Shown: piece by piece, positions 33,007 to 36,987 of the stretch | Layout: each line of letters starts with the position of its first letter | How positions within the stretch are numbered: the first letter of the stretch is position 1 | Assembly: GCA_016926835.1 (NCBI GenBank) | Contig: JAFGNX010000164.1 | Location: 1 to 36,987 of the forward strand | Origin: Candidatus Aminicenantota bacterium | GTDB lineage: Bacteria; Acidobacteriota; Aminicenantia; UBA2199 | Length of the DNA: 36,987 nucleotides | Direction of reading: 5' to 3' | Made by a program: the position numbers and the translations under genes | Notes under the pieces: generated by a model | Databases searched by the model: none | The model's input: only the letters and a program-made list of their open reading frames with translations | What the model was told of the DNA's origin: nothing

Positions 33007-34446
33007 ATGAGCAAATACAGAGTTTTGCTGGCTGACAGCAGTTACACCATCCGCCGGATCGTTGAATTGTCGTTCTCAGAGGAATCCGATATAGAACTCA
33101 TCACTTTTGAAAGTGGCACCCCGTTGCGGGAAAAGTTACTCGAGTTGACTCCCCACGTTGTATTGGTGGACATCCGTCTGCCCGAGTTCAACGGTTATCA
33201 GGTTTGCAAGTTTGTCAACGAAAGCGACGCCCTGGCCCACACCCGCGTTCTCCTTCTAAAGGGGGGATTCGAGCCCGTAAACGAGGAGTTGCTCAAAGAG
33301 TTGAAATACCAGGAAATCATTACCAAGCCTTTTGATTCCAACGCTTTGGTAAAAACGGTCAGAGACATCCTGGAAGAGGGCCGTCCCCAAACCGCTCCGC
33401 CGCCTGGAGAAGAAGACGAAATCTCGGACTCATTTCCCGAAGACCTTCCGGAGATTTCCGGTTTTGAAGATGAATCCGTTGAAGGCATCAATTTTGCGGA
33501 TGTGAGTGAAGACGTCTCCTCAGAGCAGGCACTTGGAACGACACAGAAATCAGACACCTCGGATACCGATGATTTTATCCGTGACGAGGTTATTCCCTCC
33601 GAAGAAATCACCCAGGGAGCGCAACCGGATCGCGACGATTCATTAAAACCGGATGACAACGCGGAAGATATCCCCAACCCGTTCCAGGAGAACTCGCGGG
33701 AAAGCGATATCGATGAATTGCTGGAGAGAGAAATTGAACGCGAGCGCCAAACCCATGAAGATGAGCCCGATTTCGGCGTTCCCCAGACGGATGAGTTCCG
33801 TTTCGACCCCGCGGAACCAGCCGATCCCTTTCAAAAAGAAGCCGAAGACTCTGAAACCGGCCTTGCGGAAGTAGAAACGGAACCGGCAGCCACCGATGAT
33901 ATCGCCCCGGATGAAGAATCATCCCAGGAGCCCGGCACTTCGGATACTCTTTCTGAAGCCGAACTCGCCCAGGCATTCGCTGAAGCACCGGAACCGCGCC
34001 AGAGAGACGATATCTTCGCGCCGTCAGACACGATGGAGTCCGATTCAGAAATTCCACCTCCGATTCCGGAGCCGGAAATGCCTTTGGAACCGGAACCTGC
34101 GACTCCTCCCGAAACCGAACCCTCTTTTCAAACCGATACCGAAGAGCCCGTTTACTCAATCGACGCGGACACCGATGCCGAGCGCATGCTGGAAAGTTTG
34201 AATAACCTTTCCGTTGAGACAAACACCCAGGAAACCACTGCAGCAACTGAGCAGGTGCAGGAAGAAAAAGAATCGCTGCCCCGAGAGGAAGTTGTTGATT
34301 CCCAGCAACTTACCAGCCGTCTGGAAGACAAATTGAGTATCGCGGTTAAGGAGATCCTCTGGGAAGTGGTCCCCCCGTTGGCCGAAAGGATCATCAAGGA
34401 AGAGATCCGCCGCTTGGAATCAGAGGTCGAATCCAGCGAGACCTGA
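33007..34446 (+). CDS. Response regulator receiver domain with long acidic linker and C-terminal helical domain
   Basis: KYRVLLADSSYTIRRIVELSFSEE...VVLVDIRLPEFNGYQVC...ITKPFDSNALVKTV; acidic/Pro-rich ~270 aa; C-terminal EDKLSIAVKEILWEVVPPLAERIIKEEIRRLE. Confidence 0.85.
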   Translation: MSKYRVLLADSSYTIRRIVELSFSEESDIELITFESGTPLREKLLELTPHVVLVDIRLPEFNGYQVCKFVNESDALAHTRVLLLKGGFEPVNEELLKELKYQEIITKPFDSNALVKTVRDILEEGRPQTAPPPGEEDEISDSFPEDLPEISGFEDESVEGINFADVSEDVSSEQALGTTQKSDTSDTDDFIRDEVIPSEEITQGAQPDRDDSLKPDDNAEDIPNPFQENSRESDIDELLEREIERERQTHEDEPDFGVPQTDEFRFDPAEPADPFQKEAEDSETGLAEVETEPAATDDIAPDEESSQEPGTSDTLSEAELAQAFAEAPEPRQRDDIFAPSDTMESDSEIPPPIPEPEMPLEPEPATPPETEPSFQTDTEEPVYSIDADTDAERMLESLNNLSVETNTQETTAATEQVQEEKESLPREEVVDSQQLTSRLEDKLSIAVKEILWEVVPPLAERIIKEEIRRLESEVESSET

Positions 34447-34465: not shown

Positions 34466-35794
34466 ATGTTCTGCCCCCCGTTGCCGAAACATTGCAATCA
34501 TCGTGCAATTGAAATCCGCTGGAGAAATGTATGGCGGCGGCTCGGTTCCTCGTTGCGTGCAGATCTTTGTGATATCGAATCAAATGACTTGTTGTCCAGC
34601 ATCCACGCGGATATCCTTTTAAGACACCGAATCATGCGGGAAATCTCCTCGCAGACACCTGCCGTTACACCATTCCTCTCAAAAGAAACCACCGACAGCG
34701 TTTCACACAACTTCCACAGACTTGCCCTCCTGTGCCCCCAAGCCGAAGACAACGAAATGGATGTGGATTCCCGGGAGATGGTCAAGACTCATGGCGAGGA
34801 TGTTCTGCGCTTTGCCAGCGCCATGCAATCCGGATGGCCTCCCGGTCCAAGTCGCCTGCAAGGAGCATCCGCTCTGGCAGACAAATTCTGGAACTGCATG
34901 CGTTTTGCCTGTATCCATTTGCGGGGTGACGAACCCCTGTCACCGGATCTTCAGGCTTCCTCAGACATGGAACGCTGGTTCCTGCAGCGGCTCAACACCG
35001 CCACCGCGCACTTGAACGATCATTTTGAACGCAACCGGTTGTCCCCTGCCTGCGCCCGGCTGCAGCAAATGATCCGGCATGATCTGAGCGGATGGTTCCT
35101 GGAATCCTCCCGGCGCCACATGCACAATCCAACATCACGCCAGTGTGTTCGCTACGCCATGCTGCATGTTGCCCATCTGCTCCACCCGCTGATGCCCAAT
35201 ATTACTCAGGAAGCCTTCTTTCGACTGTCGGCCTCTCCGGAAAAGTTGTTTCTTCAACTGCCGTTTCCGGAATTCCGCAGTGAGCTGGTCTTTCCCCAGG
35301 CCACGCGTAGGACACAACAACTTCACAAACTGGTCGGAGACATTCGCGGTATCGTGAACCTGCACTTACTTCCCGCCTCTATTCGACTCACCGTTATCCT
35401 GAGCAGCGAAGATCCGGCTATACGGCGTTTAATGCGCAGTCACACAGAAGATATCACTCAGCTTTCCGGGATCAGTGACCTGAGGACACATGAATCTCCA
35501 CCCTCGCACGCGATCAGAACCGCTTCCCGTTCATGGTCGATCTTCATCCCCCTGAATGATTTCCAAACCCACGCGTCCATCCGGATTGTTCTGCGAAAAG
35601 AAAAAGAAGAACTGAGCCGACGCATTCACCGCATGCAACGCAAGCTAGGTGATCGCAATTTCATGGATTCCGTTACCCCGGATACGGCTCGGCGTTGGAA
35701 ACTGCGGTTGCAACAGGATCTGCGCCGTAGAGAGCGGGTTATTCGCACCCTCGGTCTGTTGACCGAAGCCCCCGCCGCAACCACAGAAAAATGA
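34466..35794 (+). CDS. Valyl-tRNA synthetase-like protein lacking the catalytic and editing domains
   Basis: N-terminal LPKHCNHRAIEIRWRNVWRRLGSSLRAD; then MDVDSREMVKTHGEDVLRFA (the region normally just after KMSKS), anticodon-binding blocks LADKFWNCMRFACIHL / WFLQRLNTATAHL / LLHPLMPNITQEAF, and tRNA-binding arm IPLNDFQTHASIRIVLRKEKEELSRRIHRMQRKLGDRNFMDSVTPD. Confidence 0.72.
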   Translation: MFCPPLPKHCNHRAIEIRWRNVWRRLGSSLRADLCDIESNDLLSSIHADILLRHRIMREISSQTPAVTPFLSKETTDSVSHNFHRLALLCPQAEDNEMDVDSREMVKTHGEDVLRFASAMQSGWPPGPSRLQGASALADKFWNCMRFACIHLRGDEPLSPDLQASSDMERWFLQRLNTATAHLNDHFERNRLSPACARLQQMIRHDLSGWFLESSRRHMHNPTSRQCVRYAMLHVAHLLHPLMPNITQEAFFRLSASPEKLFLQLPFPEFRSELVFPQATRRTQQLHKLVGDIRGIVNLHLLPASIRLTVILSSEDPAIRRLMRSHTEDITQLSGISDLRTHESPPSHAIRTASRSWSIFIPLNDFQTHASIRIVLRKEKEELSRRIHRMQRKLGDRNFMDSVTPDTARRWKLRLQQDLRRRERVIRTLGLLTEAPAATTEK

Positions 35795-36558
35795 TGAAAC
35801 CACAAATCGCAGGAACCCGGTGTATCCACCTGGCCACATGTTCATCCACGCAGGATTACCTCCACAATCACCTGGACGAATGGCTAAAGATACTTCCCGT
35901 TTGCGTCACCGCCACACATCAGAGCGGGGGCCGCGGACGCGAGAACCGCATCTGGCATTCACCGCCCGGTCTCGGGTTGTATTTGTCCTGGGGGTTCCGG
36001 CTGCGACAAGAAAAGTCCCTGCCCTGGGTTCCCCTGGCCGTGGGTGTGGTGATCGCGGAAATCCTGGAAACCTACTGCGGCAAAAAATCGGTCCAACTCA
36101 AATGGCCCAACGATGTGCTCCTGAAAGGCCGCAAAGTTGCCGGCATCCTCAGTGAAAGCCGTCTCGGCCCGCAAGGCGCCATCTGTATCTGCGGCATCGG
36201 TATCAATGTGAACCAGGTTGAAACTGATTTTCCTCCGGATCTGGCGCAATCAGCCACATCCCTGCGCCTGAGTTGCGGCCCAACCCCCTCCGTTGAAGAA
36301 CTGTTAAACCTGCTCCTGAAACGCCTGACAGACGTCCTCAACAACCTGGAAAAACAAAAAATCCGCGGATTGCGCAGCCGGGTCCGGCGATTGACGAAAT
36401 GGATGCGACTCGATTCCCTGGTATTTCAACAGGGAAATGATCAACACAAAGGACGGTTCCTGGGAATCGCCCCGGACGGGGGAATGATCATGCTTACGGG
36501 AAAAGGCGAAAAAAGAGTTTTTTACAGCGGTGAAATAAAAATGAGCGGACCGGGTTGA
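35791..36558 (+). CDS. birA: Biotin--[acetyl-CoA-carboxylase] ligase (no HTH domain)
   Basis: QSGGRGRENRIWHSPPGLGLYLSW; LKWPNDVLLKGRKVAGILSE; ICGIGINVNQ. Confidence 0.92.
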   Translation: MMKPQIAGTRCIHLATCSSTQDYLHNHLDEWLKILPVCVTATHQSGGRGRENRIWHSPPGLGLYLSWGFRLRQEKSLPWVPLAVGVVIAEILETYCGKKSVQLKWPNDVLLKGRKVAGILSESRLGPQGAICICGIGINVNQVETDFPPDLAQSATSLRLSCGPTPSVEELLNLLLKRLTDVLNNLEKQKIRGLRSRVRRLTKWMRLDSLVFQQGNDQHKGRFLGIAPDGGMIMLTGKGEKRVFYSGEIKMSGPG

Positions 36559-36565
36559 GATTCAG

Positions 36566-36987
36566 CTAATCGCCGTTAAAGATCTTCATCCACTGATCCA
36601 CTTCCTGATCTGAAAGGCGGGTGTCGATGCGTTTCTGGGTTTCTTCCTTTTTCCCCGTTTCCCGATACTCCCGTTTCAGTTTAAAGTAGAATTCAATGGA
36701 GTTGATGGTTTTGGCACCCAACTTGCGGGCAAAAGATTTCAACTCGCGATCCGAAGTAATCAGTACGACATCACGAAAATCATTGTACGCGTTCAGAATC
36801 CGTTTAATCTCATCGTCCGCGCTGCGACCGTAGCGGGGATACAACACCAGAAATTTTGGACTGATCTCCTGCCGGTGCGCCGTACCTTCGGGTTCACCGT
36901 CAAATACCACGACAACCTTGCTTTTGCGGTTCTGCTGAAACTTGCGCACAACATGAAGGATCTTCTGTCTGGCGCCGGCTTCATCCA
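36566..36987 (-). CDS. NYN/PIN-like (YacP-type) RNA-binding nuclease-like protein; 5' end outside window
   Basis: KVVVVFDGEPEGT, GRSADDEIKRIL, VVLITSDRELKSFARKLGAKTINSIEFY; frame open to the window end. Confidence 0.75.
   Translation of the reverse strand, partial: DEAGARQKILHVVRKFQQNRKSKVVVVFDGEPEGTAHRQEISPKFLVLYPRYGRSADDEIKRILNAYNDFRDVVLITSDRELKSFARKLGAKTINSIEFYFKLKREYRETGKKEETQKRIDTRLSDQEVDQWMKIFNGD

Follow-up and report, generated by a model that had tools for sequence, protein, structure and literature searches.

The locus described here, in a window of 36,987 nucleotides (the whole stretch of DNA that was analyzed), raises the question of what a gene for valyl-tRNA synthetase (ValRS) does once its catalytic part is gone, or whether it does anything at all. 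The open reading frame of its product, P0001, has an ATG start and a TGA stop and is intact. The original prediction had placed it between a response regulator (RR) and birA, and this location was confirmed, with the birA start codon (ATG, 35791) overlapping the end of the reduced valS by 4 nt (ATGA). Coordinates are collected in Table 1. The acidic extension of the RR (33007-34446) is long and fast diverging, and the protein has a conserved C-terminal helix, LEDKLSIAVKEILWEVVPPLAERIIKEEI; in two other genomes of the family (G007 and G018) the extension is proline-rich and not acidic. PADLOC gave no match.

Table 1. Features of the reduced valS locus, and loci of other families used for comparison
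Feature	Position or locus	Strand	Basis or remark
Response regulator (RR), receiver domain and long acidic extension	33007..34446	+	Conserved upstream neighbor
Reduced native ValRS P0001, 442 aa	34466..35794	+	ORF, profile matches, 1GAX alignment, model
Degenerate N-terminal remnant and linker, aa 1-104	34466..34777	+	Alignment, dN/dS 0.56, low pLDDT stretches
Post-KMSKS stem and helix-bundle anticodon-binding domain, aa 105-280	34778..35305	+	PF08264, 1GAX, dN/dS, model
Arg204 (CGG)	35075..35077	+	Trp in every full-length ValRS examined
Helix bundle end and small alpha/beta linker ahead of arm, aa 281-365	35306..35560	+	Model, 1GAX
C-terminal helical hairpin at the position of the ValRS tRNA arm, aa 366-433	35561..35764	+	Model, 1GAX
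birA-type biotin protein ligase	35791..36558	+	Conserved downstream neighbor
YacP-like NYN-domain protein, runs off the window	36566..36987	-	Neighbor conserved in part of the family
Loci with valS missing between RR and birA	L236, L237, L238, L239, L242		

Residues 100-429 of P0001 align to residues 537-858 of Thermus thermophilus ValRS (1GAX, E 4e-13), a stretch which runs from just past KMSKS to the end of the enzyme. The sole Pfam match is Anticodon_1 (PF08264, E 7e-17), while matches to the NCBIfam valS models are confined to residues 100-422 and lie far below the cut-offs: TIGR00422 gave 113.3 bits (cut-off 612.1) and PRK05729 gave 125 bits (cut-off 704). An AlphaFold2 model of P0001, built from 49 sequences, reached a pLDDT of 86 and a pTM of 0.84, with low confidence at residues 28-40 and 69-94. 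Its best PDB match by Foldseek is again 1gax (E 2e-14), and its anticodon-binding domain (ABD) matches the anticodon domain of Pseudomonas aeruginosa ValRS (4xkz) with a TM-score of 0.79 on the target. The architecture that had been read from the sequence, a short N-terminal piece fused to the ABD and a putative tRNA arm, is borne out by the alignment and the model. Helices 366-395 and 405-433 are modeled as a long hairpin; the Pfam family of the arm, PF10458, does not match P0001, which is too diverged, yet the arm region aligns to 1GAX up to residue 858, and PF10458 is weakly matched in two other reduced forms (G008 and G013). The supposed ValRS-style N-terminus is upheld: about 57 residues, a weak remnant, line up with full-length native ValRS. 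Compared with bacterial ValRS (TIGR00422/PRK05729; 1GAX), from which it descends directly, P0001 keeps the ABD, the C-terminal hairpin and the operon position, but at 442 versus about 875 aa it has no Rossmann core and, as the original prediction had it, no HIGH, KMSKS or CP1, none of which was found in its sequence or alignment. P0001 is derived from ValRS through loss of the core, and it cannot be expected to charge tRNA.

The genome that contains the window (G000) is a fragmented assembly from the Aminicenantes family (2.05 Mb, 79% complete, 216 contigs), and all 34 genomes of our family sample are fragmented and apparently metagenome-assembled. Conservation of the shortened form in related genomes, which had been proposed as a check, was found: a reduced valS of 350-676 aa is present at the RR-valS-birA locus in 10 of the 34, belonging to five genera. 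In G005, G011, G007 and G018 the protein measures 668-676 aa and lacks CP1 as well as an intact pair of HIGH and KMSKS; a 558-aa form is found in G004, forms of 438-443 aa in G000, G001, G008 and G014 (438 aa in the last), and a 350-aa form in G013. Like P0001, its short orthologs have neither HIGH nor KMSKS. The ABD and C-terminal arm region is kept in all ten, and CP1 is missing from all ten alignments. A full-length native valS with HIGH and KMSKS occupies the locus in genera g2, g3, g6 and g9 and in one genome of g7 (G021), some of the genes so counted being split by contig ends; in G046 neither a full-length nor a reduced native valS was found. Outside the family no reduced native form was found among 130 genomes of the class, nor, Aminicenantes aside, in the 80 best named loci after contig-end fragments were removed. 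In a Thermotoga metagenome-assembled genome valS is present as two overlapping ORFs of 513 and 444 aa (L189:3485-6122), with the break near residue 411-426, which is a frameshift, either real or a sequencing error.

A collapsed or chimeric valS in the assembly or bin of G000 is one conceivable explanation, and the fragmentation of this genome, in which a contig end truncates the second ValRS, could be taken as a hint of it. It is refuted by G001, of the same genus, in which a 443-aa form with 65% identity to P0001 lies in the same layout between RR and birA, and by the reduced forms at this locus in separately assembled genomes of four other genera, so that its probability is practically negligible and an artefact was rejected.

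In all ten genomes with a reduced valS a second ValRS is encoded, at least in part, and of the 23 genomes with a full-length native valS one (G021) has such a second gene; the co-occurrence has a Fisher p of 1e-7, calculated on genomes that are not independent of each other. In genera g1, g5 and g7 the second enzyme is of archaeal type, about 880 aa long and without the C-terminal arm (L089-L092, L001). It scores 1116 bits with alt_ValS (NCBIfam NF000540, cut-off 900) and 1026 bits with PRK13208 (cut-off 738), and four of these acquired genes are complete, with HIGH and KMSKS. This archaeal-type alt_ValS is likely the replacement enzyme in the three genera and is not to be confused with the reduced protein. 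The original prediction had pointed to a search for a full-length valS elsewhere in the genome of the window: another ValRS is indeed there (contig C78), 64% identical to the G007 enzyme and with KMSKS intact, but a contig end leaves of it only the C-terminal 488 residues (391-878), while in G001 contig C164 holds the N-terminal half of an archaeal-type ValRS, with HIGH. In g4 and g8 the second ValRS is a 1079-aa bacterial type with HIGH, RMSKS and an intact ABD and arm, which in G004 is split over two contigs. G021 has the native valS with HIGH and KMSKS and also an archaeal-type gene interrupted only at a single N (L084 and L093, on G021:C628 and C503), and it probably holds two intact ValRS genes, as expected of an intermediate; its contig is not foreign, because its birA groups with g7. 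Native ABD-arm sequence is retained in all 11 family genomes that have a second ValRS.

The second ValRS was apparently acquired horizontally. It had been suggested that the reduced gene could be a valS paralog caught after deletion of its core. The core loss is confirmed, but there was no duplication: the reduced gene lies at the native locus with vertically inherited neighbors and the other ValRS is foreign, so a paralog was rejected in favor of a native, vertically inherited valS that has been displaced. The opposite case named at the outset, in which there is no structural match to ValRS, or no other valS together with an assembly deletion, was tested as well, and the data speak against it, with the second ValRS of G000 represented by its C-terminal 488 residues.

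In a tree of RpoB the genomes with reduced valS do not form one clade (AU p 9e-13). The topology implies at least four changes, a minimum under this one-gene tree in which the base of the family is unresolved. G021, with the full-length gene, is sister to G013, with the 350-aa form (support 100/99), and g8, reduced, groups with g9, full-length (89/90). The tree of the ABD leaves one versus several origins undecided (AU p 0.28, long branches), and the argument for several origins therefore rests on RpoB, implying that native valS lost its catalytic part several times separately.

Selection on the reduced ORF was estimated, as had been proposed, from dN/dS, which between G000 and G001 is 0.36 overall (LRT against 1, p 3e-14). 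It is 0.56 in the first 104 residues and 0.25 in residues 105-280, the most constrained part of P0001, with 79.5% amino acid identity to the G001 ortholog; birA of the same two genomes gave 0.33. Other reduced pairs have values of 0.33 (G007/G018) and 0.27 (G005/G011), and G008/G014 of 0.12 with dS saturated and both ORFs intact. In full-length pairs the corresponding C-terminal part gave 0.04 to 0.26. Reduced forms are clearly constrained, if less tightly than the enzyme. Neutral simulation at a dS of 0.72 produced on average 15 stops, and none of 500 ORFs stayed open. The reduced ORF is under purifying selection. With intact ORFs, dN/dS of 0.25-0.36 and no open ORF among the 500 neutral ones, a pseudogene was rejected.

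Fifty-nine positions are conserved in at least 85% of full-length ValRS; 30 of them are unchanged in P0001 and 25-49 in the other reduced forms. With so many residues lost, P0001 may have relaxed or given up its specificity for tRNA(Val). All ten reduced forms share K140, W142, N143 and W171, and all but that of G007 also have R146; judging from these residues the class Ia ABD core is retained. The anticodon contacts of the T. thermophilus enzyme, which we take to include K581, R587, F588 and L650, align to K140, R146, F147 and L212, a correspondence that may serve as a lead and not as a test. Position 204, an invariant Trp in full-length ValRS, is Arg in eight of the ten reduced proteins from separate lineages; a single nucleotide change (TGG to CGG) is enough, which makes such convergence easy. 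All reduced forms have a more basic anticodon-arm part than any full-length ValRS, and birA shows no comparable shift. Neutral simulation yields a basic shift of the same direction and size, and since drift reproduces it we dropped the charge as evidence of RNA binding.

Retention of the gene could be attributed to the architecture of the operon, and the other families of the class serve here as a control. The order RR-valS-birA is present across the class, but in several Aminicenantia genomes from other families, equipped with the 1079-aa ValRS, the RR directly adjoins birA and valS is gone (Table 1). There, native valS has been cleanly deleted from the operon. Since the gene can be removed in this way, its persistence in the present family does not simply follow from operon structure, and retention forced by the operon is disfavored; the same loci indicate that the 1079-aa enzyme needs no native remnant in those families.

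Starting from the computed results, namely descent, loss of the catalytic motifs, retention, selection and co-occurrence with a second ValRS, we infer RNA binding, a partner and a purpose for the reduced protein as follows. We give an even chance to the explanation that the displaced native ValRS was retained as a catalytically dead protein binding tRNA(Val) or another RNA, and possibly the partner of the acquired ValRS. The acquired enzyme (archaeal-type in g1, g5 and g7, the 1079-aa bacterial type in g4 and g8) would have taken over the charging of tRNA(Val), and native valS in its operon would then have been freed from catalysis. It could have lost CP1, then HIGH and KMSKS, and finally most of the core, several separate times, with the ABD and C-terminal arm common to all reduced forms staying under purifying selection. 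Most likely the reduced ValRS would be a stand-alone protein that holds the anticodon stem-loop and elbow of tRNA(Val), or of a tRNA-like RNA, without charging it. It may assist the acquired ValRS as an accessory subunit or chaperone, in the manner of SLIMP with SerRS2-alpha, or it may be a regulator which senses tRNA(Val). The idea of an accessory arm fits g8 and g4 less well, as the ValRS acquired there already has an arm.

It is also conceivable, if rather unlikely, that the ABD-arm half already had a second, non-catalytic job in regulation at the protein-protein or mRNA level, possibly connected with the RR or birA of the operon. The acquired ValRS would have been unable to do this job, so that only this half was kept, and tRNA binding would be incidental. 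Reduction in separate lineages has arrived at the same minimal module, the order RR-valS-birA holds throughout the class, and ValRS-typical residues of the ABD drift while the ORF stays constrained, all in accordance with such a job; as the gene disappeared altogether from other Aminicenantia families once the 1079-aa enzyme had replaced it, such a job would have to be family-specific. An obligatory heteromer is a stricter form of the favored explanation, in which the acquired enzyme alone charges tRNA(Val) poorly and the reduced protein is its necessary subunit; we consider it unlikely. Archaeal-type ValRS without the arm are ordinary monomers elsewhere, and the 1079-aa enzyme has its own intact ABD and arm and occurs in other families without a native remnant. 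For the heteromer speak the lack of an arm in the archaeal-type enzyme together with the retention of the native ABD-arm wherever the family has two ValRS, and the precedent of SLIMP and SerRS2-alpha (PMC10570016).

The reduced gene could finally be a redundant valS eroding by in-frame deletions and open for now only by translational coupling to birA. The graded series of 877, 676, 558, 442 and 350 aa looks like such decay, and so do the long branches of reduced forms, dN/dS above that of most full-length pairs and a charge shift equal to the neutral expectation. A decaying relic is nevertheless disfavored, and quite improbable in our estimate, by dN/dS well under 1 in four pairs and by the failure of any neutral ORF to remain open. 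The g8 pair has both ORFs intact in spite of saturated dS, in no reduced form has erosion taken away the ABD and arm region, and in other families valS was removed from between RR and birA.

The retention of a displaced, catalytically dead ValRS can be compared with several known systems. Trbp111, YgjH and Arc1p are free tRNA-binding modules related to synthetase appendages, but they are built of OB-fold or EMAPII-type domains and P0001 of a class Ia anticodon helix bundle. In HisZ the catalytic fold is present and the ABD missing, which is the reverse of P0001. To our knowledge, the known dead relatives of synthetases either still have the catalytic fold or an editing domain or are OB-fold modules that were recruited. 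Like P0001, HisZ is a dead synthetase relative retained in bacteria, and PMC9734150 describes it as a HisRS paralog that regulates HisG. The nearest precedent is SLIMP, a SerRS relative with an ablated active site which is the tRNA-binding partner of the active animal mitochondrial SerRS2-alpha, one subunit having lost its active site and the other having collapsed a domain (PMC10570016). P0001 likewise has an ablated active site, a retained module predicted to bind tRNA and, in the same genome, a second synthetase of the same specificity predicted to be active from its motifs (KMSKS in G000:C78, HIGH in G001:C164). SLIMP is a class II protein of animal mitochondria, whereas P0001 is class I, bacterial, and the product of a displaced native gene that was reduced several times; SLIMP forms a heterodimer, while the reduced ValRS is known here from sequence and a model. 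No description of a ValRS-derived protein consisting only of the anticodon domain was found in the literature searched.

What sets the present case apart is that a class I synthetase was stripped in place to its anticodon-binding half, repeatedly, after a foreign enzyme took over. We think it possible, somewhat short of an even chance, that in this bacterial lineage selection acts on a function of the C-terminal half of ValRS which is independent of aminoacylation and which gene replacement repeatedly uncovered, and that the reduced forms make up a new anticodon-domain-only class whose target would be tRNA(Val) or the acquired ValRS. A single family contains genomes in the full-length, the two-ValRS, the CP1-less and the ABD-only state, which makes it a natural experiment with the sister families, in which valS was deleted, as controls, and functions of a synthetase besides tRNA charging become directly testable.
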